Below are positions 4,117 to 28,020 of a stretch of 64,000 nucleotides of DNA, in pieces (the stretch's first letter is position 1; each line of letters begins with the position of its first letter). The position numbers were made by a program, and so were the translations under genes. Origin of the DNA: Carboxylicivirga linearis (GTDB lineage Bacteria > Bacteroidota > Bacteroidia > Bacteroidales > Marinilabiliaceae); NCBI RefSeq assembly GCF_018271995.1, contig NZ_JAGUCO010000011.1, positions 1 through 64,000 of the forward strand, in the 5' to 3' direction. The notes under the pieces were generated by a model. That model searched no databases, was not told the origin of the DNA, and was given only the letters and a program-made list of their open reading frames with translations.

Positions 4117-4229
4117 CATTATGATTCTCAAACAGATAAGTAAGTCAATTTAATTTTTTATTAAGTCGGCCTACAAAAGCAGCTAGAACTAGATAGTCAA
4201 CTTTTAACTTAATACTCAACTACAGTTGT

Positions 4230-4556
4230 TTAGAAGAGATTATTAATCTTAGCAGCCAAAATAAAGTCATTGTCGTGCAAACCATCAATTTTATGAGTCC
4301 AAATACGGATAACTACCTTGCCCCATGTAAAGCAGATTTCGGGATGATGATTTTCTTGCTCGGCTACTTGTCCTACCTGATTAACAAAGTCCAGAGCTGA
4401 CTGAAAATCCTTAAATTTTAAAGATCTTTGAAGGTGATGATTATTCACGGCCTTCCACCTCTCTAACTGTTCCATTCGCTTTGTAACCTCTTCTTCATTC
4501 AGCGGGGGTATTCCTCCTTTACAAGGAACACAGTTTCTATCGATAAAATCTTTCAT
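4230..4556 (-). CDS. Pterin-4a-carbinolamine dehydratase
   Basis: The protein has 108 residues, the usual length for the PCD/DCoH family, which dehydrates 4a-hydroxytetrahydropterin during regeneration of the aromatic amino acid hydroxylase cofactor. The active-site region is visible as ENHHPEICFTW (His70, His71, Pro72), followed by a third histidine (His88) in RIWTHKIDGLHDND. The N-terminus has an unusual Cys pair (Cys9, Cys12). No phenylalanine hydroxylase lies nearby, so the gene may serve a cofactor encoded elsewhere. It is divergent from the response regulator gene. Confidence 0.9.
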   Translation of the reverse strand: MKDFIDRNCVPCKGGIPPLNEEEVTKRMEQLERWKAVNNHHLQRSLKFKDFQSALDFVNQVGQVAEQENHHPEICFTWGKVVIRIWTHKIDGLHDNDFILAAKINNLF

Positions 4557-4772
4557 TTTTATTAAAAGATAAGGAAAATGAAATAGTCATTCAACTTTAA
4601 AAACCGGATCGATTAAACCAATATTTGATCAAAAAAAAGAATGAATATGGCATACTCATTAAATAATTGAATGAATTCATAAAATAGTATGTTCTATCAA
4701 AAAACAATTATCCATCATAATTGTAAACTGTTATACAATTAATCAAAACTAACCATATAATATCTCTTTCAA

Positions 4773-7284: not shown

Positions 7285-7313
7285 ACAGAACTTTTTTCTC
7301 TTTTATGGTAATT

Positions 7314-7329
7314 TCCCCCTTTCGGGGGA
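7314..7329 (+). terminator. GC-rich hairpin after the two-component operon
   Basis: TCCCCC and GGGGGA pair around a four-base loop (TTTC) 30 bases after the kinase stop codon. No U-tract follows, so it may act as a weak terminator or a 3' stabiliser. Confidence 0.45.
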
Positions 7330-7401
7330 TAGCGCTTGGTTAGGTACTGATTTAATTTTGACTTAACAACAAGTATAAATTATGATTCTAATACACTAAC
7401 T

Positions 7402-8727: not shown

Positions 8728-8824
8728 AAATATCATCATTAATCAAACAACCGATTCAATAACATAAAATAAATCGATACAATTTCCTGCTTTTAATCTT
8801 ATAACCTATTTACATTTTAGAGAT

Positions 8825-10444: not shown

Positions 10445-10682
10445 ACTGTTGTATTCTTCAAATGAGAGGTGGACCGAATCAATTATCAAAAAACCTTTCT
10501 CATTAATAAATCACTTAATTATTTTATATTATCTTACTTGATATCATCTTTGATTTGGACTTTAAACAACAAGCAAAAATAATAAGCAATCAGAGTATCT
10601 ATTTTATAGAAATTCCCTCGACTGCAAACAAAAAGGAAATACATAAAATCAATAAACACTAACCCTATTTTTAAATTTTCAG

Positions 10683-10714
10683 ATGCAGGATACTAAAATA
10701 ATTGTATCCTGCAT
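10683..10714 (-). terminator. Hairpin terminator after the GH28 gene
   Basis: ATGCAGGATAC and GTATCCTGCAT form an 11-bp perfect stem around a ten-base loop, 28 bases past the GH28 stop codon on the minus strand. It can also serve the plus strand, where a T-rich stretch follows. The rest of the 298-base gap between 10445 and 10742 shows nothing recognisable. Confidence 0.6.
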
Positions 10715-10742
10715 TTGTATTTCTTAAAAATACCCTCTTACA

Positions 10743-12158: not shown

Positions 12159-12437
12159 AAAACTGTTTTAAGGATTTTTAAAGGTAAAAACCTAATAATC
12201 TAATAGCTATTAAAATTGTTCAATTTAATGTAAGATAGTACTTCGCACCTGCCCATATTATATATCGCAAAATCTAATAATTCTGTACTTTCAGATCATG
12301 CATCAAATACTTTTAATTAAATTATTGTCCATTTATTAAGTATTATATTCCATTCCACTTGTTTTTAGCATTCCTAATTTTATCCAATATATATCAATAA
12401 GCTTAAATTCATCAAAAAAAGTAAAGGTGGCAGCAAT

Positions 12438-15281
12438 ATGAAAAATCCAATAGCATTTATACTCATCCTGGTATTATCACTCTGCAGTTGTCGAAAATCA
12501 AATGAATTACAGATAGATTTAAATGGAGAATGGACCTATCAACTGGATGAAAAAGAAATTGGAATTAAAGAAAAGTGGTTTAATACCAATTTTAATAATA
12601 CCATTTCACTCCCCGGAGCTCTTCGCGATTATGGCATAGGTCATGAACCTGATTTGCATACCAACTGGACGGGAAGTATTTATGACAGCTCATGGTATTT
12701 CAATCCTGCGATGGAAAAATATCGTCAGGCGGGCAATGTTAAATTCCCGTTCTGGTTAACTCCTGACAAACACTATGTAGGGAAGGCATGGTATCAGAAA
12801 GAAGTTGAAATACCTGCCAAATGGCAAGACAAAGATATTGTCATTTTTCTGGAACGTCCTCATTGGCAAACAACGGTTTGGTTTGATAAAGTAAAAATCG
12901 GATCAGACAACAGCTTATCTGTACCTCATCAGTTTATTATACCTGCTGAAGCTGTAACAGAAGGCAAACATCGTCTGACAGTGTTGGTCGATAATGCCAT
13001 TCGTGATATTGATCCCGGAATTAATTCTCACAGTATCTCCGATCATACTCAGGGCAACTGGAACGGAATAGTTGGTGCCATGAAGATGTTTCCCAAATCA
13101 GATGTACGTATTCAGCAATTAAAAATCACTCCTAATTTACAAGGACAGTCAATAACAGCAGAGGTAATCCTGTCTTCAGCCTTGCCCAACGGTAAACTGA
13201 CTTTTGAGGTCAAAGGAAAGAATCACAATCATCAGTTACCAGCACTGACTAAAGATTGTAAAGTTGAAAAGGATACGTTGGTTTACAACATTCCAATGGG
13301 TGATGATTTCAAAACCTGGAGCGAATTTTCACCGGATATTTATGAACTAAGCGTTCAATTATCTGATTCATCAGGATCTATCGATTCATTTGCATCATCA
13401 TTCGGAATGAGGGAATTCACCATTAACGATAAACATTTCGAAATAAACGGCGTTCCTCTGTTTTTAAGAGGTACCACCGAATGCTGCGTATTTCCGCTGA
13501 CAGGTTACCCGCCAACCGATGAAAAAGATTGGGATCGTATTTTCGAAATTTGTCAATCATTTGGATTGAACCATATGCGCTTCCATTCATATTGCCCGCC
13601 CGAAGCAGCTTTTAAGTCGGCTGACAGAGCCGGTTTTTATTTGCAGGTGGAAGGTCCGAGCTGGGCAAAATATTCCACTTCGCTGGGATATGGTAAACCC
13701 GTTGATCAATACCTGATGGACGAAACCAAGCGCATCATTGATACTTATGGTAATCATCCGTCGTTTTGCATGATGGCATATGGCAACGAGCCATCGGGTA
13801 AATATGTGCCATATCTCGAAAACTGGGTGGATCACTTCCGAAAATACGATCCACAACGGGTATTTACCGGCGCTTCTACAGGCAGAAGCTGGGCCATTAT
13901 CGATAACAGCGATTTTATTGTTCGGTCTCCGCCACGAGGTCTGCAGTGGAAAACCAAACAACCCGAATCGGAATTCGATTACCGCGATAAAACCGAGAAT
14001 CAAGAGCGCCCTTATGTAACATTTGAAATGGGACAATGGTGTGTATTCCCCAATTTTAAAGAGATTGAAAAATATACAGGATCGCTCAAAGCTAAAAACT
14101 TTGAGCTATTTCAGGAAGATCTGGCTGATCATCATATGTCTGATTTAGCCGATGATTTTCTGATGGCTTCGGGTAAAATGCAGGCATCGTGCTACAAACA
14201 AGAGATAGAAGCTACCATGCGAACGCCTAATCTGGCAGGATTCCAGCTGTTGTCATTGATTGATTTCAGCGGACAGGGAACTGCGCTAGTTGGTGTTCTG
14301 GATGCTTTTTGGGATGAGAAAGGTTATATTACAGCCAAAGAGTTTTCGTCGTTCTGTAACAAAGTGGTGCCATTAGTACGACTTCCAAAATTCACCTTCG
14401 AATCCAACGAAAATCTGGAAGCTGCAATCGAGATTGCTAATTTCAGTGGTAAAGCTATCAACAATGAACCCGTAAAATGGCAGTTGCTAAGAGATTCAGC
14501 CACCGTAGTTAAACAAGGAAGTATCAAAACCTCAACCATTTCGGTTGGTCACAACAATCCGATTGGTAATATTGAGGTCCCTTTAAGTTTTGCTGAAAAA
14601 GCCGAACAACTAACGCTTGCTGTATCTGTGGGCGAATATCAAAACCAATGGAATATATGGGTTTACCCTGTTGCTCAACCAGAAATTAAAACGGATGATC
14701 TGATTATTACCGATCAGATTAATGCAAAAACCTTACAGGCATTAGAAGATGGTAAATCAGTATTATTGCTTGCTGCAGGTAAAGTTGAGAATGGTAAAGA
14801 TGTGGTTCAGCATCATACGCCTGTTTTTTGGAATACATCTTGGTTCCGCATGCGTCCGCCACATACAACGGGTGTATTAATTCAAAATGAGCATCCTGTG
14901 TTTAATGATTTCCCTACTGATTATTACAGCGATATGCAGTGGTGGGAAATTGATAACCTGCAACAAGCCATGAATCTGGAGTATTTCCCTGTAGATTTTC
15001 GTCCGTTGATTCAACCCATCGACACCTGGTTTATGAATCGAAGACTGGCAATGCTTTTTGAAGCAAATGTGGGAAAAGGTAAGTTGATGGTTTGCAGCAT
15101 TGATCTATCAGACAATATGAATGAAAGACCAGTGGCACGTCAGTTGAAGCAAAGTATTCTCAACTATATAATATCCGATCAGTTTTTTCCTTCTTCTGAT
15201 ATTAATTATGAAGTGATAGAAGAACTTTTTGAGAAGAAAGAACGTGAGGGGTGGAAATCGTATGTACGGGAAGATCCTTAA
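12438..15281 (+). CDS. Glycoside hydrolase family 2 lipoprotein
   Basis: The 947-residue protein has a lipoprotein signal (LILVLSLCSC). It holds an N-terminal GH2 sugar-binding jelly roll (about 25-200), an immunoglobulin-like domain (about 225-325), and a TIM barrel (about 330-640) with the acid/base Glu451 in AYGNEPSG and the likely nucleophile Glu530 in TFEMGQW. About 300 further C-terminal residues lack an obvious family. The class covers beta-galactosidases, mannosidases and glucuronidases; the specificity cannot be read from the sequence. GH35 follows after 20 bases, so the two form an operon that likely removes side chains of the same glycan as the divergent GH28. Confidence 0.88.
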   Translation: MKNPIAFILILVLSLCSCRKSNELQIDLNGEWTYQLDEKEIGIKEKWFNTNFNNTISLPGALRDYGIGHEPDLHTNWTGSIYDSSWYFNPAMEKYRQAGNVKFPFWLTPDKHYVGKAWYQKEVEIPAKWQDKDIVIFLERPHWQTTVWFDKVKIGSDNSLSVPHQFIIPAEAVTEGKHRLTVLVDNAIRDIDPGINSHSISDHTQGNWNGIVGAMKMFPKSDVRIQQLKITPNLQGQSITAEVILSSALPNGKLTFEVKGKNHNHQLPALTKDCKVEKDTLVYNIPMGDDFKTWSEFSPDIYELSVQLSDSSGSIDSFASSFGMREFTINDKHFEINGVPLFLRGTTECCVFPLTGYPPTDEKDWDRIFEICQSFGLNHMRFHSYCPPEAAFKSADRAGFYLQVEGPSWAKYSTSLGYGKPVDQYLMDETKRIIDTYGNHPSFCMMAYGNEPSGKYVPYLENWVDHFRKYDPQRVFTGASTGRSWAIIDNSDFIVRSPPRGLQWKTKQPESEFDYRDKTENQERPYVTFEMGQWCVFPNFKEIEKYTGSLKAKNFELFQEDLADHHMSDLADDFLMASGKMQASCYKQEIEATMRTPNLAGFQLLSLIDFSGQGTALVGVLDAFWDEKGYITAKEFSSFCNKVVPLVRLPKFTFESNENLEAAIEIANFSGKAINNEPVKWQLLRDSATVVKQGSIKTSTISVGHNNPIGNIEVPLSFAEKAEQLTLAVSVGEYQNQWNIWVYPVAQPEIKTDDLIITDQINAKTLQALEDGKSVLLLAAGKVENGKDVVQHHTPVFWNTSWFRMRPPHTTGVLIQNEHPVFNDFPTDYYSDMQWWEIDNLQQAMNLEYFPVDFRPLIQPIDTWFMNRRLAMLFEANVGKGKLMVCSIDLSDNMNERPVARQLKQSILNYIISDQFFPSSDINYEVIEELFEKKEREGWKSYVREDP

Positions 15282-15301
15282 TACACCCAAATTAATAAGC
15301 T

Positions 15302-17701
15302 ATGAATATGCGAAAGATAACAACATTTATACTGGCAGTTTTTCTGATATCGGGCATAAAAGCTCAAACCACCTATACCATCAATATTGATCAGCCGGAG
15401 CAGGAAATTATCCGTGGACATCTTGATTTAGGTGGTTCTAATCCTGCCGGAGAAGAAATTACAGTTAACAGTTATTATATCGAAAAAGACGGTAAACCTT
15501 TCTTTCCGATTATTGGGGAATTTCATTATGCTCGCTTTGATGAGAAATACTGGGAAGAAGAGGTCCTAAAGATGAAAGCCGGTGGTATCAATACCATTGC
15601 TACTTACGTATTCTGGAATCTTCACGAACGTAAGGAAGGTATTTTCGATTGGACCGGAGACCTGAACCTGAAAAAGTTTCTTGAGTTGATTAATAAACAT
15701 CAGCTATATGCCATTGTTCGTGTGGGTCCGTTTTGTCACGGTGAAATGCGTAACGGAGGCTTGCCCGACTGGCTCTACGGAAGAACATTTGAAGTAAGAA
15801 GCAACGCTCCTGAATACCTTGATTACGTTGACCGTTTGTATGGAGAGATTGGCAAACAAACAGTCGGTCTTTTGTATAAAGACGGCGGACCGGTAATTGG
15901 CATTCAGCTCGAAAACGAATATCAGCATTCATCAGCTCCCTGGGAATTTATGTATCCAGGAAGTAAAAAAGACGGAACAGTTCCTGATCGTGAAGCTGCT
16001 TTTTCGCACACTCAAATTACCGTTACCGATGGTGTAAATCCATGGTCGGAATACGGAAAGCAACACATGGTCAACCTGAAAAAACTGGCTAAGAAGAATG
16101 GATTGGATACACCTATCTATACAGCTACTGGTTGGGGAAATGCCACCATAGTTGAAAAAGGAAGCTTACCGGTTACCGCTGGTTATGCCTACCCTTTCTG
16201 GTCTGATCCGCGACCTTCAAGCTTTTATCTCTTTAAAGACATCAGAAAAAAACCGGACTATAGCCCGGTAAGCTACAATACCGACCTCTACCCTTCCATC
16301 TCCGCCGAAATTGGTCCCGGTATACAGGTTAAATACTCACGTCGCCCGGTGGTTGATTACCGAAGTGTTAATCCTTTAATGACCCGCATTATCGGAAGTG
16401 GCTCAAATGGCATCGGATATTACATGTATCATGGTGGTTCAACCCCGGTGCTCGAAGGTAAATACTATAACGAAGAAGCAAACGGAATACCTCGGATCAA
16501 TTATGATTTTCAGGCTCCCATTGGGCAATACGGACAAGTACGCTACCATTTTAAACATCTGCGTATGCTGCATCTATTTTTAGATGCATATGCTGATGTA
16601 CTTGCTCCGATGAAGACTGTTTTACCAGAAACAAATACCGGTATCAAAGCTGATAACACAGAAACATTACGATATGCAGTCCGCTCATACGGTAATTCCG
16701 GATTCTTGTTTATCATCAATTTCCAGGATCATATCGATCTGAAGAATATTGAAGATGTACACATTGATATACATGCTAAAAACGAAACCTTCTCGTTCCC
16801 TTCTATAGGAACTTTTGATGTTAATGAAACCACCAGTGCCATACTTCCTTTTAATCTACAACTGGAAAAGGCACTGATTAAATCAGCTACCGTTCAACCG
16901 CTGACTATCCTTAAAAAAACGGAGATGAATTACTATGTATTCCATAGCATCACCGGAATAGATGCCGAGATTAATTTTCCAACAGACACTAAAATATCGA
17001 AACTAAATAACGCACGAGTTACAATGGTTAACGGTATACGTAAGGTAAGCTCCAATACATCGGGGCCTTTTTCGTTTACCGCAAATGAAACCAGCATATT
17101 AGTTATACCGGAAGATATGGCGGTTAATGCCACTAAAATAAACGAAGACTTATATATTTCGGATGCATTAATTCTGAAGGATACTAATAAATTGCAATTA
17201 ATAACGCGCGAAACAGAAAATCAAATTCACATCTTTCCGGCTCAAAAAAGAGATTTAGCAGCTTCTTCGGCAAATATTAAAAAAGCGAACACTTTGCATA
17301 AAGGTTTTGATTCGTATACCGTGACTTTTGACGAAATAAAACCCGATGTAGTGATTGAAAAAGCAACCTCGCGAAAATATACTTTGCAACTGCAATCTAT
17401 CATCTCCAACCTGAATGATGTATTTGTTGATATTGATTACATCGGCGATCGTGGTCTGGCATTTATTGACGGCAAAATGATTACCGATCATTTTTACCAT
17501 AATCGCACATGGGAACTCAGCTTAAAAAACTTTGCTTCTGAATTGAATGATAATCAGATGGTATTTGTTTTTCACCCTATGTACTCCGACTATAGTTACT
17601 TGAAAGATCTGAATGAAGTTCCTGAATTTATAAAAGGGAAATATTTAGAGATAAAAGATTTTAAAGTCATTCCGGAATACAAAACAGTTATCTCTCTCTA
17701 A
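15302..17701 (+). CDS. Glycoside hydrolase family 35 beta-galactosidase
   Basis: This 799-residue protein has a signal peptide (to about residue 21) and a GH35 catalytic barrel: GEFHYARF, INTIATYVFWNLHE, VRVGPFCHGEMRNGGLP, the acid/base Glu206 in QLENEY, and the nucleophile Glu336 in SAEIGPG. C-terminal beta domains (about 440-799) fit the jelly rolls of the family. It should release terminal beta-galactose (or arabinose in some members) from oligosaccharides. Second gene of the GH2-GH35 operon, without SusC/SusD partners in view. Confidence 0.92.
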   Translation: MNMRKITTFILAVFLISGIKAQTTYTINIDQPEQEIIRGHLDLGGSNPAGEEITVNSYYIEKDGKPFFPIIGEFHYARFDEKYWEEEVLKMKAGGINTIATYVFWNLHERKEGIFDWTGDLNLKKFLELINKHQLYAIVRVGPFCHGEMRNGGLPDWLYGRTFEVRSNAPEYLDYVDRLYGEIGKQTVGLLYKDGGPVIGIQLENEYQHSSAPWEFMYPGSKKDGTVPDREAAFSHTQITVTDGVNPWSEYGKQHMVNLKKLAKKNGLDTPIYTATGWGNATIVEKGSLPVTAGYAYPFWSDPRPSSFYLFKDIRKKPDYSPVSYNTDLYPSISAEIGPGIQVKYSRRPVVDYRSVNPLMTRIIGSGSNGIGYYMYHGGSTPVLEGKYYNEEANGIPRINYDFQAPIGQYGQVRYHFKHLRMLHLFLDAYADVLAPMKTVLPETNTGIKADNTETLRYAVRSYGNSGFLFIINFQDHIDLKNIEDVHIDIHAKNETFSFPSIGTFDVNETTSAILPFNLQLEKALIKSATVQPLTILKKTEMNYYVFHSITGIDAEINFPTDTKISKLNNARVTMVNGIRKVSSNTSGPFSFTANETSILVIPEDMAVNATKINEDLYISDALILKDTNKLQLITRETENQIHIFPAQKRDLAASSANIKKANTLHKGFDSYTVTFDEIKPDVVIEKATSRKYTLQLQSIISNLNDVFVDIDYIGDRGLAFIDGKMITDHFYHNRTWELSLKNFASELNDNQMVFVFHPMYSDYSYLKDLNEVPEFIKGKYLEIKDFKVIPEYKTVISL

Positions 17702-17830
17702 ACCAATGATAAAAAACATGAATAACAGCATGCGGTAGGACTAATTATATTGTTGTTAGAAAGGTAGTTGTTGAACTATTGCATTTATTACTGTACCTTA
17801 AAAATCATAGTAATAACAAATTCTAACACA

Positions 17831-18661
17831 ATGGAAAAATATCAAAATCTAATTGAGAAAGCTTATGAAGTAATATTAGTGTATGGCCCTAAAGTAATTC
17901 TGGCCCTTATTGTTCTTGTTGTTGGTTTGTGGGTTATCAATCGCTTCACCAAGATGGCTCGAAAGGTAATGACAAAACAAAATGTAAATATTTCATTAAT
18001 TGGTTTTGTATCAAGCCTTACTAACCTTGGATTAAAAGCACTTTTACTGATTAGTGTAGCAGGAATGATAGGTATTCAAACCACCTCATTTATTGCCATT
18101 TTGGGAGCTGCGGGACTAGCTGTTGGACTTGCTCTTCAAGGTACCTTAGCAAATTTTGCTGGCGGAGTTATGGTTTTAATTTTCAAACCCTACAAAGTGG
18201 GTGATTTAATTAAAGCTCAAGGCCATCTGGGCGTGGTGAAAGAAATTCATATTTTTGTCACCATACTTTTATCTCCTGAGAGCAAAACCATTATTATACC
18301 TAATGGAGCTATTTCTAACGGTGATATTACCAACTACACAACCGAAGGTAAAATAAGGGTTGATATGACATTTGGCATTTCATACGAATCAAATATCAAG
18401 AAAGCCAAAGAACTATTATTAAATGTGATGAGTAATCATCCGAATGTATTAGAAGATCCCGCTCCTTTTGTTGGAGTCAGTGAATTAGGTGATAGCTCGG
18501 TAAATCTGGCTGTAAGACCCCATACTAAACCACAGGACTATTGGACTGTTTATTTTGACGTTTACGAACAAGGTAAAATTGCTCTCGATGAAGGTGGTAT
18601 TACCATTCCATTCCCTCAAGTGGATGTTCATTTTGATAAAGATGCTCGTATTTCAAATTAG
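17831..18661 (+). CDS. Small-conductance mechanosensitive channel (MscS family)
   Basis: Starting at ATG 17831 the protein has 276 residues; an upstream in-frame TTG at 17768 would add 21 residues with no family match and is not preferred. Three membrane helices (about 15-110) include the pore helix with its Gly/Ala-rich face (AILGAAGLAVGLALQGTLANFAGG), followed by the beta domain (FKPYKVGDLI, IPNGAISNGDITN) and the alpha-beta C-terminal domain. These match MscS, an inner-membrane tension valve against hypo-osmotic shock. A strong hairpin terminator closes the single-gene unit. Confidence 0.93.
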   Translation: MEKYQNLIEKAYEVILVYGPKVILALIVLVVGLWVINRFTKMARKVMTKQNVNISLIGFVSSLTNLGLKALLLISVAGMIGIQTTSFIAILGAAGLAVGLALQGTLANFAGGVMVLIFKPYKVGDLIKAQGHLGVVKEIHIFVTILLSPESKTIIIPNGAISNGDITNYTTEGKIRVDMTFGISYESNIKKAKELLLNVMSNHPNVLEDPAPFVGVSELGDSSVNLAVRPHTKPQDYWTVYFDVYEQGKIALDEGGITIPFPQVDVHFDKDARISN

Positions 18662-18685: not shown

Positions 18686-18709
18686 AAGCCGGGTCCTCCG
18701 GCTTTTTTA
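18686..18709 (+). terminator. Rho-independent terminator after mscS-like gene
   Basis: AAGCCGG and CCGGCTT pair around a GTCCT loop (with a flanking G), followed directly by a run of Ts. It lies 24 bases past the stop codon. Confidence 0.88.
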
Positions 18710-18803
18710 TTATCAGAATAATAAACACCTATAAAAATCTACTGACATACTGTTGTCACTACCGCCATGTTTCTTTGCATTATCAATCTAAAACAAACAA
18801 AAG

Positions 18804-19256
18804 ATGGAAACAAAAAAAGTAGCACCCACAACAGTAGCAATTCACAGTATCAAAATTTCGTTATCAACCATTAGCAATGCCGTTGGAGTAATTCCGAATA
18901 TGATAATGGAAGAAATTCAGAAGCAAAACATCAAGCCTACAGCTCCGCAAATCTGGCATTACATCGATTGTGATGGCCAGATGGATACTGAATTCAACCT
19001 TGATATTTGTGTGCCGGTAGCTGAAACCGGTAAGGAAAATAATCTGATATCCTTTAAAGAATTAAATGCCTTTAAATGTATTACAGATATGCATCATGGA
19101 CCTTGGAGTGAGTTAGGTGCAGCCTACGAAAAACTATTTGGCAAACTGGCACAACAAGGCTTTAAACCAACAGGCCAATGTCGCGAAGTGTATCATCATT
19201 GCGATTTTGAAGATCAGAACAAATGTATAACCGAAATACAAGTAGAGGTACTCTAA
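18804..19256 (+). CDS. GyrI-like small-molecule-binding domain protein
   Basis: The protein has 150 residues and resembles the stand-alone effector-binding (GyrI/AraC_E_bind) fold: an N-terminal strand, a central DGQMDTEFNLDICVPV motif with the conserved acidic and aromatic positions, and a C-terminal LGAAYEKLFGKLAQQGF helix. Such proteins bind or hydrolyse small hydrophobic molecules, or act as companions of regulators. It lies upstream of a DUF3795 gene and a WYL regulator, with its own weak terminator after it. Confidence 0.75.
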   Translation: METKKVAPTTVAIHSIKISLSTISNAVGVIPNMIMEEIQKQNIKPTAPQIWHYIDCDGQMDTEFNLDICVPVAETGKENNLISFKELNAFKCITDMHHGPWSELGAAYEKLFGKLAQQGFKPTGQCREVYHHCDFEDQNKCITEIQVEVL

Positions 19257-19276
19257 TTTAATTACATTTATACAGT

Positions 19277-19305
19277 CGAACGGTTTATTCTAGCCGTTTG
19301 GCTTT
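19277..19305 (+). terminator. Weak hairpin terminator after GyrI-like gene
   Basis: CGAACGG and CCGTTTG make a 7-bp stem with one G-T pair and a ten-base loop, followed by GCTTTT. It lies 20 bases after the stop codon. Confidence 0.6.
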
Positions 19306-19319
19306 TAATCCAGACTAGA

Positions 19320-19685
19320 ATGAAAACAGACAAACCAATTGTTAACAACCCTGAACTAGTAGCCTATTGCGGATTGTACTGTGGTTCCTGTTCAAAATTA
19401 AAAAATGGCAAATGCCCAGGATGTGCTGCCAATCAAAAGGCAACCTGGTGTAAGATACGTACCTGCAACATCGAAAATGGCTTTATCAACTGTGCTCATT
19501 GTACTATCACTGAACCTGAAAACTGTAAGAAAATAAACAATGCCATAGGAAAAGTCTTTAAATTTATCTTTAAAACCGATCGCATTGCCAGTCTGCAATA
19601 CATTAAAACTAACGGAGAAGCACTTTATGTTGATAAGATGGCTGATCTAAAACAAATGTCAATCAAAACCAAACAAACTATTTAG
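19320..19685 (+). CDS. DUF3795 cysteine-rich protein
   Basis: This 121-residue protein holds the DUF3795 signature of clustered cysteines: YCGLYCGSC, then KCPGC, WCKIRTC, NCAHC and ENCKK. The pattern suggests a bound metal or iron-sulfur centre; the family has no settled function. The WYL regulator begins two bases after its stop codon, so the pair is one transcript and may be functionally joined. Confidence 0.85.
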   Translation: MKTDKPIVNNPELVAYCGLYCGSCSKLKNGKCPGCAANQKATWCKIRTCNIENGFINCAHCTITEPENCKKINNAIGKVFKFIFKTDRIASLQYIKTNGEALYVDKMADLKQMSIKTKQTI

Positions 19686-19687
19686 AA

Positions 19688-20635
19688 GTGAACCGCATTG
19701 ACCGCTTAAGTGCCATATTAATTCAGCTTCAGAGCAAAAGGGTTGTTACAGCTAAAGAAATTGCCGATCGATTCGAGATTAGCCTGCGAACGGTTTATCG
19801 CGACATCAGAGCTTTGGAAGAAGCTGGTATACCCATTGGAGCCGAAGCCGGAGTTGGTTACTTTATCAACCCGGGATTTCACTTGCCTCCTATCATGTTT
19901 ACCAACGAAGAAGCTTGCGCCTTTTTACTGGCCGAGAAGCTAGTTGGACAGCTATCAGATTTAAATATAGCTGCATCGTTCGAGAGTGCTTTGTTTAAGG
20001 TTAAAGCTGTTTTGAAGCAAAATGATAAAGATCATCTTAATAATTTATCTGATAAAATCACCGTTTTTAATCATGGAAGTGAAGATTGTAAGCAAAACCT
20101 GTTTTTGCATGAGATACAGATAGCCTTAGCGAGTAAACAAATATTACAAATTGAATACACTGCCAATTATAATGGTAAACAAAGCGTTAGAACAATTGAG
20201 CCGATAAGTTTATGTAATTACGATATGCGATGGCATTTGATTGCCTATTGTCGATTGCGCAATGATTATCGAGATTTCAGACTTGATCGGATTTCTAAGT
20301 TAACCATACTTTCCGGAACCTATGATGAAAAGAACCATCTGTCGCTGAATGAATATTTCGAACGGATGACCAAAGAAACTGACCTAGTTACCATCGAAAT
20401 AAGAGTTCATGAAAGTATTCTCGAAAAACTGGCTTCGTCGAAGTATTGGTTTGGTTTATTGGAAGAAACCAAAGAAGGCAACCATTACAAGATGCGATTT
20501 GCCAATTCCGATTTGGAATCGTTTAGCAAATGGACGTTAAGCATGGAGGATAAAGTGGAAATTCTTTCGCCTCCAGAATTGAGTGAAATGGTTATTAAGA
20601 ATGTGGAGCTGTTAGCCAAACATTACCTTAAATAA
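19688..20635 (+). CDS. WYL-domain transcriptional regulator (YafY type)
   Basis: The protein has 315 residues and starts at a GTG two bases after the DUF3795 stop. An N-terminal HTH_11 winged helix (about 1-60: TAKEIADRFEISLRTVYRDI) is followed by the WYL domain (about 135-230, with the RTIEPISLCNYDMRWHLIAY core) and the WCX C-terminal extension. Such proteins are DNA-binding regulators that sense a ligand through the WYL domain. The last 41 bases of its coding region recur with four mismatches at 27250-27290, after the neighbouring minus-strand module (see findings). Confidence 0.9.
   Translation: MNRIDRLSAILIQLQSKRVVTAKEIADRFEISLRTVYRDIRALEEAGIPIGAEAGVGYFINPGFHLPPIMFTNEEACAFLLAEKLVGQLSDLNIAASFESALFKVKAVLKQNDKDHLNNLSDKITVFNHGSEDCKQNLFLHEIQIALASKQILQIEYTANYNGKQSVRTIEPISLCNYDMRWHLIAYCRLRNDYRDFRLDRISKLTILSGTYDEKNHLSLNEYFERMTKETDLVTIEIRVHESILEKLASSKYWFGLLEETKEGNHYKMRFANSDLESFSKWTLSMEDKVEILSPPELSEMVIKNVELLAKHYLK
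20588..20628 (+). repeat. Direct repeat, copy 1 (3' end of the WYL gene)
   Basis: These 41 bases, starting ATGGTTATTAAGAAT, match 27250-27290 at 37 of 41 positions in the same orientation. The two copies bracket the six minus-strand genes between 20654 and 27074. Confidence 0.8.
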
Positions 20636-20653
20636 CCGGTAGAAAAGGCATTA

Positions 20654-21319
20654 TTATTCCTCCTTTAATTTCTTCAGCGCCTTTATATCATCTCCCGTAA
20701 GAATTTGTACAGCTTGTGTTATCTTCTCAATATTCCAATCCCACCATTGTAGTTGTAAAAGAATCTCTATCTGTTCATCTGAAAAACGCTTTCGTATTGT
20801 TTTTGCTGGATTCCCTCCAACAATGGTATAAGGTTCAACATCTTTGGTAACAGTTGAATTGGATGCAATAACAGATCCATCACCTACTGTAACACCCGGC
20901 ATAATGGTAGCATTATACCCAATCCAAACATCATTACCAATTATCGTATCTCCTTTTGTTGGATAACTCTTACCGTTCATAGCGTCTTTCCACGCACCAC
21001 CAAAAATGGCGAATGGATAACTACTGATTGTATTACTTAAATGATTGGCTCCATTCATTATAAACGTAACATCTGAGGCAATCATACCGAATTTACCAAT
21101 AATCAGTTTGTCACCAATAAAATCAAAATGGTACTTCACATTTTTCTCAAAATTATGCGGATCCTCAAAATCATCGTAATACGTATAATCACCCACCAAA
21201 ATATTAGGATTGCGAATTATATTTTTAAGAAAAACCAGGTTTTGGTAATGTGCTAATGGATAAGTACTGTTTTTATCAGGAATATTCATTGTATTATCAT
21301 GTTTTGTGAATGTTTTCAT
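20654..21319 (-). CDS. CatB/Vat-like xenobiotic O-acetyltransferase
   Basis: The 221-residue protein is a left-handed beta-helix (hexapeptide) acyltransferase. Visible are VGDYTYYDD, the catalytic His in [40 protein letters not shown] and [10 protein letters not shown]. This pattern marks the CatB/Vat group, which acetylates chloramphenicol or streptogramin A in resistance members; most chromosomal members have unknown substrates. Its ATG overlaps the stop of the upstream NmrA-like gene by four bases (ATGA), so translation is coupled. An internal start at MNIPDK is possible. Last gene of the module. Confidence 0.88.
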
Positions 21320-22179
21320 TTACTGAATTCATGACTTATGCCTTGGTAATAATCTTCCAATTTATGAACGCCATACTTAGGTGCAATCATATCCGAAGCC
21401 ATAGCCGATAAGAAAAACTCAATTGGGCCATATATTTTCGAAGGTAAAAAAGTTCGTACCAAACCCAATGTAAAACTCCTTATCCAGTCAGATAAATGTA
21501 CAATCTTTACTGGCTTATTTAGCGTTTTTAATGCCAGAGAAGCTATTTGATTTTGCGTAAAAACCTCGGGACCTCCCACTTCTATTTCTTCATCATCAAC
21601 ATGAATACTATCCAAACAAACTCTGGCTAAATCATCACCATGTATTGGATTTAAAGAATTTTCGCCAGTACCAAACAAATACACCTTGCCTTTTTGAGCC
21701 ATATTCAAGAAATCCTTCATATCGGAGAAAAAGCCATTAGGCCGAATAATGGTATATTCTAGCCCTGAAGTTTTTAACTCATCAACAAACCGTTCTTTTG
21801 CCTCACATATTTTCAGATGCCTCATATTCTGACCATTTAGCACCGAAACATACACAAATTTTCTGACGCCTGCTTTTTTGGCTTCCTCCAGCAAATTATG
21901 ATTGGCTCCATAATCAACATCCATATAGCTTAACCCATCTTTTTGCCGGGTTATACCTACAGTTGAGATTACAGTATCTACTCCATTCAACATCCCTTGT
22001 AAAGTTATGTTATCTGTAAACTCAACTTTTACTTTTGTAATATTTTCACCTTCGTAAACTGCTAACTTTTCCAGATTTCGGGCTAGCAATAAAGCATTGA
22101 TGCTTTTTTGTGATACTACAGCTTCTGCAATGCATTTTCCTAAGTAACCGGTTGAACCGGCTATGGCTATCTTTTTCAT
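21316..22179 (-). CDS. NmrA-like NAD(P)-binding reductase (atypical SDR)
   Basis: This 287-residue protein starts with a Rossmann fold ([20 protein letters not shown]) containing the GxxGxxG motif, followed by [20 protein letters not shown] and [13 protein letters not shown]. This matches the atypical short-chain dehydrogenases of the NmrA/SDR_a5 group, which bind NAD(P) for catalysis or sensing. The substrate is unknown. It lies 18 bases after the upstream serine hydrolase gene and is translationally coupled to the acetyltransferase. Confidence 0.88.
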
Positions 22180-22197
22180 ATTACTGCAAGAAAGAAT

Positions 22198-23265
22198 TTA
22201 AAATTCGTTATGTAAGATGGTTTCAATAATGGTATTGCGGATAATGGCTGTATTATCCTGCTCATTACTCAAAGCGATAATAACACCTTCCGATTCGGGT
22301 ATAAATCCAATTAACGACGAAAAGCCATCAATATCACCTCCATGCCAAATAAAGGTTTTATTATTGATGTTGCTTACAAACCACGACATTCCGAAAACAG
22401 TTGTTTCTGCTGCAACATCTAATCCCCATATTACATTCTTCTCTTCTTCGGTTAACCATTCATCTTCCATCACAGCCTTGCACCATATTTCCATATCTTC
22501 AACACTACTGGTCCAGCAACCGGCTCCTATTGTAATGGCCATTGGATAATCAGAAACATTTTGGGTTCCATTATACCCTTGTGCATATCCTTGAGAAGGA
22601 ATAGAGTTAGTACCCATTTCGGTATGCTGCATATTTAAAGGTTGTAAGATATTCTGATGAATGTAATTCTCATAACTACTACCGGCTAATTTCTCAATCA
22701 ACACAGCCGCTAACAAATAATTAGAATTTGAATATTGCATTGAAGTGCCTGGTGTAAACACCAATCCTTCGGATGAAATGTGCTCTTCCAGCAACTCACA
22801 AATTTTTATTGGTGAAATAGCCTCACCTGTTTTTGCAGCATCTTCAACCATTGGAATATAATCAGGTATGCCACTTTGATGCATTAATAACTGACGAAGT
22901 GTAATTTCAGAGAAAGAAGAAAACAAAGGATCTAAATCGCTTAATGATTGATCAAAACTGGCAATTAAACCATCCCTTTTTAATTGAATAATACCCATTC
23001 CTGTAAGCGTTTTACTAACTGAACCAATCCTGAATTTTGTTGTAACAGTATTCGATTCACCTGTTTCGTGGTTTGCCATACCAAACCCTTTACGAATAAT
23101 ATCATTGCCTGATTTCGAAATCAGGACTGCTCCATGGTATTCCAATTCTTCAAAAAACAACTGCGGATTGGTATAATCTATACTATAGTTTGCCGGCACT
23201 TCATCCTTAGTACACGAAGCACAAACCAACAATATAGAGATAACTGAATATATGTACTTTTTCAT
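22198..23265 (-). CDS. Serine hydrolase lipoprotein (class C beta-lactamase fold)
   Basis: The protein has 355 residues from ATG 23265, which gives a clean lipoprotein signal (SILLVCASC); a start six codons earlier is possible. The catalytic SxxK motif is GSVSK, the YxN motif is YSNSNY, and the third motif is WHGGD. The fold covers esterases, D-aminopeptidases and beta-lactamase-like proteins, and resistance should not be inferred. It is the second of two tandem, only distantly related, serine hydrolases in the module, which suggests sequential action on a periplasmic substrate. Confidence 0.88.
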   Translation of the reverse strand: MKKYIYSVISILLVCASCTKDEVPANYSIDYTNPQLFFEELEYHGAVLISKSGNDIIRKGFGMANHETGESNTVTTKFRIGSVSKTLTGMGIIQLKRDGLIASFDQSLSDLDPLFSSFSEITLRQLLMHQSGIPDYIPMVEDAAKTGEAISPIKICELLEEHISSEGLVFTPGTSMQYSNSNYLLAAVLIEKLAGSSYENYIHQNILQPLNMQHTEMGTNSIPSQGYAQGYNGTQNVSDYPMAITIGAGCWTSSVEDMEIWCKAVMEDEWLTEEEKNVIWGLDVAAETTVFGMSWFVSNINNKTFIWHGGDIDGFSSLIGFIPESEGVIIALSNEQDNTAIIRNTIIETILHNEF

Positions 23266-23301
23266 AAGTTTATTAAGTAGCATGTTTATATTGCCTACTT
23301 T

Positions 23302-24471
23302 TTAATTTTTATTGAGTAACACTAATATCTTAACTAATAATTTCACCGACTCTTTCACCTCGTCAGTTTGATTCAATGTACCTGATAAATAAACATCTAT
23401 CTCTGGACAATAGTACATAAACGAACCTGTAATACCCGAATGACCAATTAAAGTTAAATCAGGTAAGATGGGAAATAATTCTTTGAACACTATTCTTCTT
23501 AATCCGTATCCGTATTCCATCCCGTAGGTTTCCGGAATCCATTGTTGCATTGCCGCCAACGTATTTCCCTTAACTATTTTTCCAGAGAACAAAGTCTCCT
23601 GAAATCTAATTAAATCAGCACCTGTTGAAACCAATCCTCCACCTGCCCAGTCTGCACTTAAGCTTTTCATGCCTGACACCTCATTATCACCCACAAATAT
23701 TTCGGACAACATCGCTGTTTGATTGATTGCTTTAGAGCGATATAACATGTAGGAATACTTCATATTCAAAGGAATGAAAAAATGCTCCCTGAAAAAATGA
23801 TGCAAGGCCGTACTGCTTACTTTCTCAATAATAAGCCCCAATAAAACATATTCTGTATCGGTATAATGATAATCGGTACCGGGTTTAAATAACGGTTTCA
23901 TCTTTGTTTTGGCAAACTCAATGGTTTCGGTTGGATACCAATATTTATCCGGATTAGAAAACAGTAATTCCATTACATTCGTACTTCCATCAATAGTTGA
24001 ATCTTCAAAATAATCAGGCAGACCAGAAGTATGCTGAAGCAAATGCGCAATGGTTATTTCATGAGAATAATCGATACCCTTAAAATGATGCAGGTTTAAC
24101 ATTACCGAATCAGGCAAATACATATTTATCGGATCATTGAAACTGAGCTTTTGTTGATCAACCAACAGTGCTATGGCTGTTGCTGTAAATGTTTTACCAA
24201 TGCTGGCGGTGTAAAATGGATTTGAGGCTGTTACCTCCCTCCCATCTGCAAAGTGACCTCCAGAAAAAGTCCAATCTATTTCTTTCGAAGGAGAATAAAT
24301 AGTTAAGAATGCATTGTGTATATGCTTCTTCTGTAATTCATCACTGAAGTATTCTTCAGTTTTTGAATGGATCTCTTCCAGACTCATTCTATTTGTGCAA
24401 CCGGAGAAGAGTAATGAAGTAATTGTGATTGCAAGCAACACCCAAATAATATGTACAAATATATTTCTCAT
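23302..24471 (-). CDS. Serine hydrolase (class C beta-lactamase fold), second paralogue
   Basis: The 389-residue protein has a lipoprotein signal (SLLFSGC). The nucleophile motif is ASIGKTFTA, the second motif is YTDTEY (Asp in place of the more common Asn), and the third is HSGITGSF. These define a penicillin-binding-protein-like hydrolase located in the periplasm or on a membrane. It lies 23 bases after the barrel-protein gene and 36 bases before the next hydrolase, within one operon. Confidence 0.87.
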   Translation of the reverse strand: MRNIFVHIIWVLLAITITSLLFSGCTNRMSLEEIHSKTEEYFSDELQKKHIHNAFLTIYSPSKEIDWTFSGGHFADGREVTASNPFYTASIGKTFTATAIALLVDQQKLSFNDPINMYLPDSVMLNLHHFKGIDYSHEITIAHLLQHTSGLPDYFEDSTIDGSTNVMELLFSNPDKYWYPTETIEFAKTKMKPLFKPGTDYHYTDTEYVLLGLIIEKVSSTALHHFFREHFFIPLNMKYSYMLYRSKAINQTAMLSEIFVGDNEVSGMKSLSADWAGGGLVSTGADLIRFQETLFSGKIVKGNTLAAMQQWIPETYGMEYGYGLRRIVFKELFPILPDLTLIGHSGITGSFMYYCPEIDVYLSGTLNQTDEVKESVKLLVKILVLLNKN

Positions 24472-24494
24472 TTTAGCCTGATTTACAAGATCTC

Positions 24495-25130
24495 CTAAAA
24501 GGCATATCCTAAGGAAAATTCTCCCAAAAAACCATTCATAAAAGTATAATCATCACGAAATACATCAATTGCATCCATGGCATCCTGACTGGAATTACTT
24601 ACTGTTAAATTATCAATGGCATATCCATAACCCAGTGCGAAATTTAAGGTAATGCCACTTTTCCAAATCCATCTTTTTCCCACATTTAAACCAATAGTGT
24701 ATTCGGGTAACGAAAAATTAAATTTACCGGACTCTAACGTTCCATCACCTTTTATTTTACGATAACGCGAGAAAATGCCTGCGTACGATGAATTCAGTCC
24801 TCCCCCAATATGGTAACGATAATTTAAAATCACGGCTTTGCCATTGGCGTCTATCTCAGCATCGGAATAGCTTTGCGGAATAGTTTCCAAATCACCTCTT
24901 AAAACCACCCCATGATTTTCACCAAATAAATGCTCTACATTAGCCGAATAAAATCCCATAAAAAAACCACCTGGACAAACATTAATGGCTGTTTTAGCAG
25001 GGCTAATCCATTTCTCTTTTTCTTCCTTATTTGTATTTAGCGTGCTTTGTGCATTTACTTTAACACTGAACAATAAAACAGCTAGTGCTACAACATAACT
25101 TCTTCTTACTTTAGTAAAACCTTTTTTCAT
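24495..25130 (-). CDS. Small outer-membrane beta-barrel protein, unknown
   Basis: This 211-residue protein has a signal peptide (to about residue 27, ending VNAQ), then alternating hydrophobic strands with a terminal aromatic residue (LGEFSLGYAF), as expected for an eight- to ten-strand outer-membrane barrel. Motifs such as GFYSANVEHLFGENHGVVLRG resemble DUF3575-type proteins, but the assignment is loose. It is the first gene after the regulator in the module and may be the outer-membrane component. Confidence 0.7.
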   Translation of the reverse strand: MKKGFTKVRRSYVVALAVLLFSVKVNAQSTLNTNKEEKEKWISPAKTAINVCPGGFFMGFYSANVEHLFGENHGVVLRGDLETIPQSYSDAEIDANGKAVILNYRYHIGGGLNSSYAGIFSRYRKIKGDGTLESGKFNFSLPEYTIGLNVGKRWIWKSGITLNFALGYGYAIDNLTVSNSSQDAMDAIDVFRDDYTFMNGFLGEFSLGYAF

Positions 25131-25286
25131 CTGTGTTATCGATTAAATTAATAATTTTCTACTTATCAACGATACAAAGATGGCATGTAAATAAGAGTAA
25201 TTCGTCTTAATATATGATTCAGGACGCATTTATGAAAATCAGTACTTTTAAACACAACACAAACTAACGCTAACAGAACAATAGCA

Positions 25287-27074
25287 TCACTTTATTTCCT
25301 TTAACCAATTACCAGGGGTAATACCTGTGGCTTTTTTAAAGTAGGCGTTAAAAACCGATTTAGAGTTAAATCCACTTTCATAAGCCAAACCAATAATAGT
25401 AAGGTGCGCATACTTATTATCTTTTGCTATGCTTTTAAAATACCTGAGGCGATACTGGTTTATAAACTCATTAAAATTCATCTGCGTTCTTTCATTAATA
25501 AGAAAAGATAGTTTATTGGGATGAATTTGAATGGCATCAGCCAGGCCAGTTAAACTAAGTTGAGGATCAAGATAAGGCTTTTTAGTATGAATAAAATCCT
25601 CCAATCTCTGCATTTGAATATCTAAATCCTTATGATGACTATTTAATGGAGCTTGTAAATTAGCATTACTAACATCAGCACCTTCAATTGTTAAGTTGGA
25701 TTGATGTAATTGATGAAATTCTCCAAAGACCTGCAAAGCCTCAAGAGATGGATCGAACCGATAATTAATAATTTGTCCTCGCTTCTGATCAACATATTGC
25801 CTCAGTAATTGCAATGCTTCTGTTTTATGGTTAGAATTAGCCATGATAAACAATTCATAAGGTACCATATGCGACTTTATAGCAGCATCTTTCCACTCAT
25901 CAACCAATGTGCTGTTTAATGAATTCTTCCCATTGTTAATAACATCAAAAAAGATCCTTTTAAGGTCAGCATCCTCCATCCCTGCTACCATCATATCAAA
26001 TGCATCTTTTTGATTTAACCATATCAAACAAAGAGTTTTTAACTCGTAAGCCAATACAAAATCAGGATTGATAAAAAGAGCCTGTTCAACTAATTGGAGT
26101 GCTTTCTTAAAAAACTTTTGATAATAGCAGATATGCGCCTGCGTATAGTAATGATTGGCCGACATGGGATCTACCTCCATGGCTCGTTTGATATATTCTT
26201 CGGCTTTTGACCATTTACCATGAGCAATAAATAACTCAGCCATGGCTTCCAGTCCGTCTGTATATTTAGGATGCAGATGTAAGGTTTCTTTTAGTTGTTT
26301 GTAGGTGGCTTTAAAATCCCACTCCATCCAAAAGGTTCTCCCTACAAATGACTGCCCGTACTCAGGCAATGATTTATTCAAATCCTGAGCTATCATAAAA
26401 TATTCGATGGCTTTGGCAAACCCTTCTTCTGATGGCATATAACCCCAGGCAGCCATTAGACCATATGCCTGAACCAGCCCATAATACGCGCGGGCAAATT
26501 CAGCATCGTGAACGATGGATTGTTTATAATATTCTGTGGCTTTTTTTATGGAATCAGGATCCCATTTGAGTTGAAAGAAATGTCCTTTTAAATAAAGCTC
26601 GTAGGCTTTGATATTTTTTGTTTCGGTAGATACCAGCTGATCCTGAATATTAAAATGCCCGTAATTCTCCCTTATTTTATCGGCTATCAGTAAACTTATT
26701 TCATCCTGTAGGGCGAAGATATCATCTATTTCTCTATCGAAATTATGCGACCAAAAATGAGTACCATCACTGGCATTTATCAACTGAGCTGTAATACGTA
26801 CCCGGTTCTTATATTTTCTTACACTACCTTCCAATACCGCAGCAACGCCCAGTTGGCGAGCTATTTCCCGAATATCAATATTCTTACCCTTAAACGAAAA
26901 AGAGGACGTTCGGGCAATTACTTTTAACGCTTCAATTTTAGTTAAAGCATTTATTATTTCTTCGGTTATACCATCGCTAAAATACTCGTTATCCTCATCG
27001 TTACTGATGTTGATAAAAGGCAAAACAGCAATCGATTTATCTGCTGCCTTGTGGGCTCCCCTAATACGATTCAT
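25287..27074 (-). CDS. TolB-like / TPR / AraC-family regulator
   Basis: The protein has 595 residues with three parts. An N-terminal TolB/FlgO-like domain (about 12-135: KSIAVLPFINISNDEDNEYF, then GVAAVLEGSVRK and ITAQLINASDGTHFW) is known from adenylate-cyclase-linked and TPR regulators. TPR repeats fill about 150-420. A C-terminal AraC HTH (about 495-593: LTGLADAIQIHPNKLSFLIN ... AYESGFNSKSVFNAYFK) binds DNA. No membrane helix is seen. It heads the minus-strand module 156 bases upstream of the barrel gene and is the natural candidate to control it. Confidence 0.9.
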   Translation of the reverse strand: MNRIRGAHKAADKSIAVLPFINISNDEDNEYFSDGITEEIINALTKIEALKVIARTSSFSFKGKNIDIREIARQLGVAAVLEGSVRKYKNRVRITAQLINASDGTHFWSHNFDREIDDIFALQDEISLLIADKIRENYGHFNIQDQLVSTETKNIKAYELYLKGHFFQLKWDPDSIKKATEYYKQSIVHDAEFARAYYGLVQAYGLMAAWGYMPSEEGFAKAIEYFMIAQDLNKSLPEYGQSFVGRTFWMEWDFKATYKQLKETLHLHPKYTDGLEAMAELFIAHGKWSKAEEYIKRAMEVDPMSANHYYTQAHICYYQKFFKKALQLVEQALFINPDFVLAYELKTLCLIWLNQKDAFDMMVAGMEDADLKRIFFDVINNGKNSLNSTLVDEWKDAAIKSHMVPYELFIMANSNHKTEALQLLRQYVDQKRGQIINYRFDPSLEALQVFGEFHQLHQSNLTIEGADVSNANLQAPLNSHHKDLDIQMQRLEDFIHTKKPYLDPQLSLTGLADAIQIHPNKLSFLINERTQMNFNEFINQYRLRYFKSIAKDNKYAHLTIIGLAYESGFNSKSVFNAYFKKATGITPGNWLKEIK

Positions 27075-27172
27075 TCACACAATTTACAATGTCAGGTTTT
27101 TCTATTAACAAATGTGAGGTTTTAATGTTGAATTTCAATAACCCATTGTATCAATTTTTAAGTCGAAATAAA

Positions 27173-27300
27173 TCTGGAATCATATGCCATATATAGACAT
27201 GACATGAAAAGTAGAGAGGATAATATTTACCTTTCGCATGTTACAGTATATGGTTATTAAGAATATGGAGTTATTAGCCAATCATTACCTGAGGCACTAA
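27173..27300 (+). pseudogene. Decayed 3' remnant of a WYL-regulator gene
   Basis: The segment from 27250 encodes MVIKNMELLANHYLRH and a stop, against MVIKNVELLAKHYLK at the end of the WYL gene (19688-20635). The last 41 bases agree at 37 positions. Shorter matches upstream (TGGAATC near 27175, GAGGATAA near 27216, TTTCGC near 27232) occur in the same order as in the WYL gene, but with indels. No open frame remains upstream. It lies in the gap between the AraC/TPR regulator and the DUF4405 gene, so it also forms the regulator's upstream region. Confidence 0.72.
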
Positions 27301-27321
27301 CTCCAAATCATTTAAAACATC

Positions 27322-28020
27322 CTACTTAATAAGCATTTCTTCCACATATTCACGCAAATCATTCATATCAAAACCATAGTCACGTTTTAAACGTCCTAAT
27401 CGTTCGTCAGCCATAGAAACAGGAACATCAATTGCATTAGCCAAATCGTTAACAGGGATATTATATTTCTCGGAAACTTCTTTTAATGTCATAGAACCAT
27501 AAATATCAACACCATACTCCTCGTGCTGTTTTACATTTTCGTTATTCTTAATGACTTTACTTTCTATATGATTCTCCGAAGAACGATTACCTCTAACACC
27601 ACCATTATGATCACCTTTTCCTCCTTCCTGTATTTCAGGTTTTACAAAAATGGGGGCAACTGCAAGTATTAGTGTCAGAAATAGTAAAATAATACCCAGA
27701 ACGATTCTTATACTTTTGCCAGATATCATTCTTCTATAAATAGCAACAATTAGTTTCCAATGAAAAATTATATGAAGTAACAGCAAAAAGATTAGAACAA
27801 AACCAAAAATCAAGTGAATATTGCCCCATTGATGACGATCCATATTCCAGAATGATAATTCAACATTCCTTCCGTATACCTCATGTCTTTCGGAGCCAGG
27901 AATAAGCACATATTCCATTAGGAAACCTATACCCACCACAATCATCATGCTGAGATACATTAAAATGTCAATAATAAAATTCAGTTTAACTTTACTAATT
28001 CGAATTTCATTTGTTTGCAT
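27322..28020 (-). CDS. DUF4405 membrane protein
   Basis: This 232-residue protein has three predicted membrane helices (about 12-34, 66-88 and 100-124) with a conserved WGNIHLIFGFVLIFLLLLHI stretch containing paired histidines, as in the DUF4405 family (possibly heme or metal binding). The soluble C-terminus (about 172-232) holds a helical tail beginning MTLKEVSEKYNIPVNDLANA. That motif is found at the ends of several membrane redox proteins. Function is unknown. The gene stands alone. Confidence 0.8.
   Translation of the reverse strand: MQTNEIRISKVKLNFIIDILMYLSMMIVVGIGFLMEYVLIPGSERHEVYGRNVELSFWNMDRHQWGNIHLIFGFVLIFLLLLHIIFHWKLIVAIYRRMISGKSIRIVLGIILLFLTLILAVAPIFVKPEIQEGGKGDHNGGVRGNRSSENHIESKVIKNNENVKQHEEYGVDIYGSMTLKEVSEKYNIPVNDLANAIDVPVSMADERLGRLKRDYGFDMNDLREYVEEMLIK

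Follow-up and report, generated by a model that had tools for sequence, protein, structure and literature searches.

The locus described here raises the question of how the end of one gene came to stand on both sides of a group of six others. The window, a stretch of 64,000 nucleotides of Carboxylicivirga linearis (contig NZ_JAGUCO010000011.1, positions 1 to 64,000), holds a gene for a WYL-type regulator followed by six minus-strand genes, below called the module, and the last bases of the WYL coding region recur beyond the module, next to a gene for a DUF4405 protein. A preliminary description of this DNA explained the layout by insertion at, or duplication of, the WYL 3' end. That interpretation was partly supported: the repeat is real and the unit occurs elsewhere without WYL, but a role of the repeat as a mark of the event is not supported, as judged from G001, a genome of the same genus that carries the same genes without it. 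It is considered probable, though with some reserve, that the locus combines a laterally exchanged operon of variable content with a separate recombination scar at the junction between the module regulator and the DUF4405 gene. The six genes do not move by means of this scar.

Positions 20588-20628 and 27250-27290 share 37 of 41 bases on the same strand at an offset of 6662. A search of the whole C. linearis genome (6 Mb) at E <= 0.001 returned these two places only, the second copy with E = 2e-8. No direct repeat longer than the 41-bp pair was seen in the 17 kb around it, where the other 11 repeat families of at least 24 nt measured 24-30 nt at 70-84% identity. A degenerate pattern, derived from the copies themselves and thus testing rarity only, matched twice in the window and never in 100 shuffles. 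With such an E value over 6 Mb and no match in the shuffles, a chance similarity of the repeat is practically inconceivable, even though the part upstream of it, taken by itself, could be chance. Hence, the repeat was confirmed as genuine. Read in the WYL frame, the second copy gives MVIKNMELLANHYLRH with a stop at 27298-27300, while the WYL gene ends in MVIKNVELLAKHYLK. The alignment and the genome search thus bear out the recurrence in orientation and frame that had been described. The stop ascribed to the second copy is also present, but the similarity to the WYL gene is lost past base 41, the stop falls two codons later in the alignment region and the remnant is one codon longer, so that this stop was not copied from WYL.

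Further, the locus was compared with G001, a complete one-contig genome and the only one near enough for comparison at the level of bases. The GyrI, DUF3795 and WYL genes are followed there by the six module genes in the same order and on the same strands as in the window, and the two WYL proteins are 90% identical. The nucleotide homology forms a single alignment, 18731-27141, ending just upstream of the module regulator gene. Between this gene and DUF4405, a DUF4249 gene and a TonB receptor gene are found in G001; the remnant is found in the window. No second WYL end was detected in G001, where both spacers scored 12-21 against the WYL 3' ends, the level of unrelated comparisons, whereas the window spacer scored 62. 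The claim that the repeat is an insertion footprint is therefore unsupported by G001, the one informative relative. An insertion or duplication limited to the C. linearis lineage is possible.

The features of the locus are the following, in window coordinates.

18731-27141, no strand assigned: block of nine genes common with G001 (84% nucleotide identity), with different neighbours on the left and DUF4405 as the next common gene on the right
18804-19256, plus strand: GyrI-like small-molecule-binding protein (PF06445, 44.8 bits, cut-off 26)
19320-19685, plus strand: DUF3795 protein (PF12675, 23.3 bits, cut-off 22.6)
19688-20635 including the stop, plus strand: HTH_11-WYL-WCX regulator, either the source of the repeated 3' end or a sister to it
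20588-20628, plus strand: repeat copy 1, 41 bp, within the WYL coding 3' end
20654-21319, minus strand: Vat-like hexapeptide acetyltransferase (NF000311, 278.9 bits, cut-off 300)
21316-22179, minus strand: NmrA-like NAD(P)-binding reductase (PF13460, PF05368)
22198-23283, minus strand: serine hydrolase BL1 of the beta-lactamase/DD-peptidase family (PF00144)
23302-24471, minus strand: serine hydrolase BL2, same family as BL1 (PF00144)
24495-25130, minus strand: small putative exported barrel protein (weak match to DUF3575, below cut-off)
25287-27074, minus strand: regulator with a FlgO-like N-terminal part, TPR repeats and an AraC-type HTH
27172-27249, plus strand: possible further decayed WYL homology (anchored extension; weak)
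27250-27290, plus strand: repeat copy 2, 41 bp, displaced WYL 3' end that keeps the frame and has a stop of its own (27298-27300)
27322-28020, minus strand: DUF4405 protein, with which the right flank begins

The HTH, WYL and WCX domains of the WYL regulator were all above their cut-offs (PF08279, PF13280, PF25583). In the module regulator, TPR and HTH_18 were above and FlgO below the cut-off, and its N-terminal part is the one named TolB-like in the preliminary description. The module is one minus-strand unit of six genes, as had been described, and its joints consist of one 4-base overlap, gaps of 18, 18 and 23 bases and one of 156 bases. The short joints would leave no space for attC sites of the usual length, such as separate the genes of an integron cassette array (no attC model was used). 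Terminator and promoter patterns were no commoner than in shuffles.

The search for the six-gene set elsewhere, which had been suggested, revealed an operon family. The barrel protein served as its marker: an alignment of three barrel proteins was used for a pattern-based scan of a collection of 84,980 species, which covers only genomes with one of two peptide patterns and does not have G001 among its matches. Seven loci were obtained, four in Draconibacterium and one each in Maribellus maritimus, Sunxiuqinia dokdonensis and Marinilabiliaceae bacterium A049 (G006); the Draconibacterium, Maribellus maritimus and Sunxiuqinia dokdonensis loci all belong to Prolixibacteraceae. A search of 393 genomes of the same taxonomic order, sampled out of a larger group, gave, besides the C. 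linearis locus, four weaker matches of 22-38% identity; the matches listed include neither G001 nor G006, and in the two whose neighbourhood was read (L100, L101) the other five module genes were not found. Among the nine loci formed by the seven, the window and G001, the regulator and barrel genes were present in all nine, the acetyltransferase and BL2 in eight each, the reductase in five (one of them broken) and as a fragment in A049, and BL1 in four. All six genes occur together in three of the nine: the window, G001 and L098.

The operon starts with the regulator and barrel genes, holds hydrolases and reductase variably in its middle, and carries the Vat-like acetyltransferase toward its end. 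L095 has a gene of 226 amino acids inserted after the regulator and before the barrel, and its additional genes code for two alpha/beta hydrolases, a DUF4386 protein and an S41-type peptidase; L094 contains an alpha/beta hydrolase, and its acetyltransferase is absent within the fetched stretch. Similar extra genes were assigned in L096-L098 from their first residues only. Operons with fixed ends, variable middle genes and lateral spread are a known general kind, which the module resembles in its constant regulator and barrel, its nearly constant acetyltransferase and its changing middle. The A049 copy lies on a contig of 4302 bases and consists of the regulator, the barrel, a reductase fragment and the acetyltransferase. 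As a separate observation, two of the nine loci have a reductase gene in decay or in pieces, as a C-terminal fragment in A049 (L066:957-1058) and as two overlapping pieces in D. orientale (L096:13672-14521), and BL2 of G001 (L033:14417-15586) is broken by an in-frame stop, the window copy being open.

No WYL, GyrI, DUF3795 or DUF4405 gene was found in the fetched flanks of the seven loci L093-L099, one of which is the short G006 contig. Since module copies exist elsewhere without WYL, the module must have come to adjoin WYL at some point. The six genes are, judged by gene content, an exchangeable unit with a variable middle that exists without the WYL trio. In five small unrooted gene trees (5-9 rows each, the D. 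orientale NmrA being entered as its best piece only) the C. linearis and G001 genes always paired, with bootstrap values of 96-100. An acetyltransferase gene of 70% identity was found without other module genes in another genus of the family (G440). GyrI and WYL genes were seen together in six other genomes (L035-L040), one of the same genus and five of other genera of the family; DUF3795 accompanied them in four of the six, and the stretches held no module gene. GyrI-(DUF3795)-WYL is a recurrent unit in its own right.

Synonymous divergence between C. linearis and G001 was determined at fourfold sites, defined as those with the same first two bases in both, from tblastn alignments of a list of 40 genes (the open reading frame 57868-58365 and smaller ones were left out). 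Outside the block there were 31 genes, of which 20 were matched and all pooled and 11 were unmatched. The identity at fourfold sites was 371/557 (67%) for 18.7-24.48 kb, 106/224 (47%) for the regulator and barrel genes at 24.48-27.1 kb, and 1131/2654 (43%) for the 20 matched flank genes. With sites treated as independent, the first segment differed from this background at p = 5e-25 and the second at p = 0.18. The regulator and barrel are thus at background divergence, and the contrast suggests a lateral exchange, after the split of the two species, of the segment that begins with the trio and ends with BL2 (18.7-24.5 kb). Such an exchange would take in the WYL trio but stop short of the regulator end, so that it would not be delimited by the repeat copies.

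We propose the following course of events. An operon of the Prolixibacteraceae type would have come to adjoin the GyrI-DUF3795-WYL trio. After the species split, the segment 18.7-24.5 kb would have been exchanged between the C. linearis and G001 lineages or received by both from the same third party. The displaced WYL 3' end at 27250-27290 would have been left at the regulator/DUF4405 junction as a scar, either as a short piece copied in illegitimate repair or as the last trace of an otherwise lost second WYL copy. In the working model of function, the TPR/AraC regulator would sense foreign compounds of a peptide-like or macrocyclic nature, or relay their presence, and these would be broken down or modified by the hydrolases, reductase and acetyltransferase. 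The bracket is separable from the unit: the scar is absent from the one close relative carrying the unit, and the unit is also found with no scar beside it. The locus overall is a case of ordinary genome plasticity.

Several points weigh against this explanation. The border at 24.48 kb was picked once the per-gene values were known, and the best single split falls at about 24.9 kb. Fourfold identity rises to 56-59% in three flank genes whose proteins are well conserved (91-97% identical), and codon bias may account for part of the raised values. The description of the repeat as private to the lineage means that it is absent from one genome, G001. If the remnant were a recent local duplicate, the similarity upstream of it would have to be chance, and this similarity was equalled in fewer shuffles (12 of 2000) than expected. 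The pattern of differing bases between the WYL alleles, four sites against none, is weak (1 in 16, one-sided). The function proposed for the operon is drawn from family names.

On the origin of the scar, the remnant itself gives two kinds of evidence. The C. linearis and G001 WYL genes differ at 5 of the 41 bases; the remnant agrees with C. linearis at four of them, with neither at one and with G001 at none, and three further bases are private to it. This leans to a copy made in the C. linearis lineage. Upstream of the 41 bases, an alignment anchored on them and extended leftward reached about 27172 and was equalled in 12 of 441 control placements, for which the 3' ends of 21 further genes were taken; a smaller first run under three scorings was equalled in 2-4 of 300 shuffles and in 0-6 of 300 controls with real sequence. 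The shuffles in the main run preserved dinucleotides. A free local alignment of the upstream part did no better, or hardly better, than chance (equalled in 558, 46 and 82 of 1000 shuffles with three scorings), and an ungapped comparison was at the chance level (1763 of 5000). Identity falls sharply at 27249/27250, from 90% to little or none. The upstream similarity fits the WYL gene of G001 about equally with that of C. linearis (scores 20 and 15), which leans to an older, decayed WYL copy. The matches which had been traced back to about 27173 are thus weakly supported by the anchored alignment, and less so by the others; a WYL homology back to about 27172 is possible on this evidence.

Two ways to produce the scar were considered. 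The DNA between regulator and DUF4405, for example the TonB/DUF4249 pair, may have been deleted and the gap sealed with about 41 bases for which the WYL end, at a distance of 6.6 kb, was the template. The abrupt drop of identity at the edge of the remnant, its closest likeness to the WYL gene of its own genome and its absence from G001, where two extra genes sit, agree with such a short templated insertion. The anchored extension suggests, however, that more than 41 bases were involved, and the TonB receptor is patchy in the genus: relatives of 65-66% identity occur in 3 of the 13 other genomes (G003, G009, G011), the best match in C. linearis itself reaching 43%, so that acquisition by G001 and loss here are equally likely. 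In G003, which alone among these has a DUF4405 match, the TonB relative lies on a different contig; DUF4249 was not searched separately. This origin of the scar is put forward tentatively. Alternatively, in the C. linearis lineage a trio with its own WYL allele may have resided beside DUF4405. Incoming DNA with a trio and the module may then have recombined within the trio at one side and broken into the 3' end of the resident WYL allele at the other, so that this end stayed behind as the remnant. The direct orientation, the correct frame and the position of the remnant against DUF4405 as a convergent gene end fit this event, as do the weak upstream homology, shared about equally with both WYL genes, and the junction falling where the block homology to G001 stops (27141). 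On the other hand, a resident outgroup allele would predict the opposite of what was found in the 41 bases, 37 of which are identical to the C. linearis WYL gene and 33 to that of G001. Of the 14 genomes of the genus, just three (G000, G001, G002) gave a WYL gene of at least 60% identity. WYL matches were obtained in 30 of 60 relatives and DUF4405 matches in 8 of 36, the two were seen to adjoin in no relative, and outside the block they did not co-occur in 34 WYL and 10 DUF4405 stretches, several of which are two cuts of one place. We regard an integration driven by homology as rather unlikely.

The same comparisons bear on a mobile element with the WYL 3' end as its target, which it would rebuild on insertion. 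Integrative elements can rebuild a gene 3' end, and integrases do so at tRNA genes or gene ends; a direct repeat of a gene end around a gene set, in this case a unit also found elsewhere, is the likeness of the present locus to such islands. Here, however, no recombinase was named among the ten proteins at 18804-28020 by Pfam and NCBIfam, smaller open reading frames lying outside the scan, in line with the absence of an integrase noted in the preliminary description. The only trace was a marginal RepL match in the HTH part of the WYL regulator. No tRNA was found in the window, and the block edges aligned at scores of 19 (direct) and 18 (inverted), other unrelated comparisons giving 12-23. The module stands at the same WYL end in G001 without the second repeat, and around its copies in other genera the fetched flanks are free of WYL. 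An empty site without the six genes was seen in none of the relatives compared; the arrangement which had been proposed as a check, WYL directly beside DUF4405, did not appear, and the one informative relative has the same order as the window, an outcome that the preliminary description had named as refuting its interpretation. A search of 71 family genomes with the DNA of the WYL 3' end returned C. linearis and G001 only, the remaining row being a match to the acetyltransferase. An element of this kind is very improbable. The integrase type was rejected for want of a recombinase, a tRNA and an edge repeat above unrelated comparisons, and insertion at the WYL 3' end was likewise rejected as the general way in which the module moves, given G001 and the other genera.

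The predicted function was examined by comparison with known families. The acetyltransferase gave a nearly full-length match to the Vat model, and its closest solved chains are virginiamycin A acetyltransferases. It is thus alike to the Vat streptogramin A and CatB-type enzymes in family match and closest solved relatives, and stands closer to Vat than to CatB, to which it had been likened. It differs from Vat in scoring below the curated 300-bit cut-off, in sitting in a Bacteroidota operon and, possibly, in its substrate. Both hydrolases share PF00144 with the beta-lactamase/DD-peptidase serine hydrolases, and the closest solved chains of BL1 include Flp, ClbP and DD-peptidases. Since both fell far under the cut-off of every NCBIfam beta-lactamase model among the rows listed (25 of the 42 for BL1, all 24 for BL2), they are not assignable as resistance enzymes. 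From these family names we infer that the operon may answer foreign peptide-like or macrocyclic compounds.

A further-reaching interpretation would make the operon an undescribed, laterally spread Marinilabiliales locus, constant at its ends and exchangeable in its middle, that senses and destroys foreign peptide or macrocyclic antibiotics, and the 3' side of DUF4405 a recurrent site of capture for such units, working through short gene-end homologies. We consider this unlikely; if true, the operon would be a natural reservoir keeping Vat-like enzymes together with peptidase-like hydrolases. The nine loci, with interchangeable enzymes between constant ends, form a small natural series for studying the signal of the regulator and a possible action of the Vat-like enzyme on antibiotics. 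The gene set was not found among the entries listed by full-text literature searches, read as titles and beginnings of abstracts. A defence island was rejected, as PADLOC run on the ten proteins matched none of the six module proteins and only the WYL regulator (8 models, the best being WYL with 192 bits). Carriage of the block by plasmids or phages was also rejected: blastn of 18700-26600 hit 99 plasmid and 8 phage records, with a query coverage below 80% throughout, and the best of the 10 plasmid rows listed covers 8%. Nine of these 10 rows and all 8 phage rows fall at the acetyltransferase gene. Among the matches listed (plasmid rows H2-H10, phage rows H11-H18), the Vat-like gene is nearly the sole part of the block with DNA relatives (64-72% identity) on plasmids and phages from other bacteria, one row being an SDR gene.

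Some observations were made on the surroundings of the block. The 3' side of DUF4405 differs in three genus members, the other side being common to them (window 27142-27322; L033:8289-11809; L067:10064 onward), and it forms a breakpoint, where the window has the WYL scar, G001 the TonB/DUF4249 pair and G006 an AMP-binding/aminotransferase gene; a recurrent insertion spot may lie there. In the left flank, the ten genes at 83-18661 had no match in the stretch 3347-3446 kb of G001, and a collinear left flank was rejected on this ground. In the right flank, the gene order is the same as in G001 from DUF4405 to 62.4 kb (60680-61312 being without a match). A two-gene unit at 12438-17701 recurs with protein identities of 86-93% in G001 (L130:1691-7291) and G006 (L127:8829-14395), each time in different company; in G001 it lies some 60 kb away from the block, in G006 on another contig. 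Its gene at 15302-17701 was judged by eye to code for a beta-galactosidase-like glycosidase.

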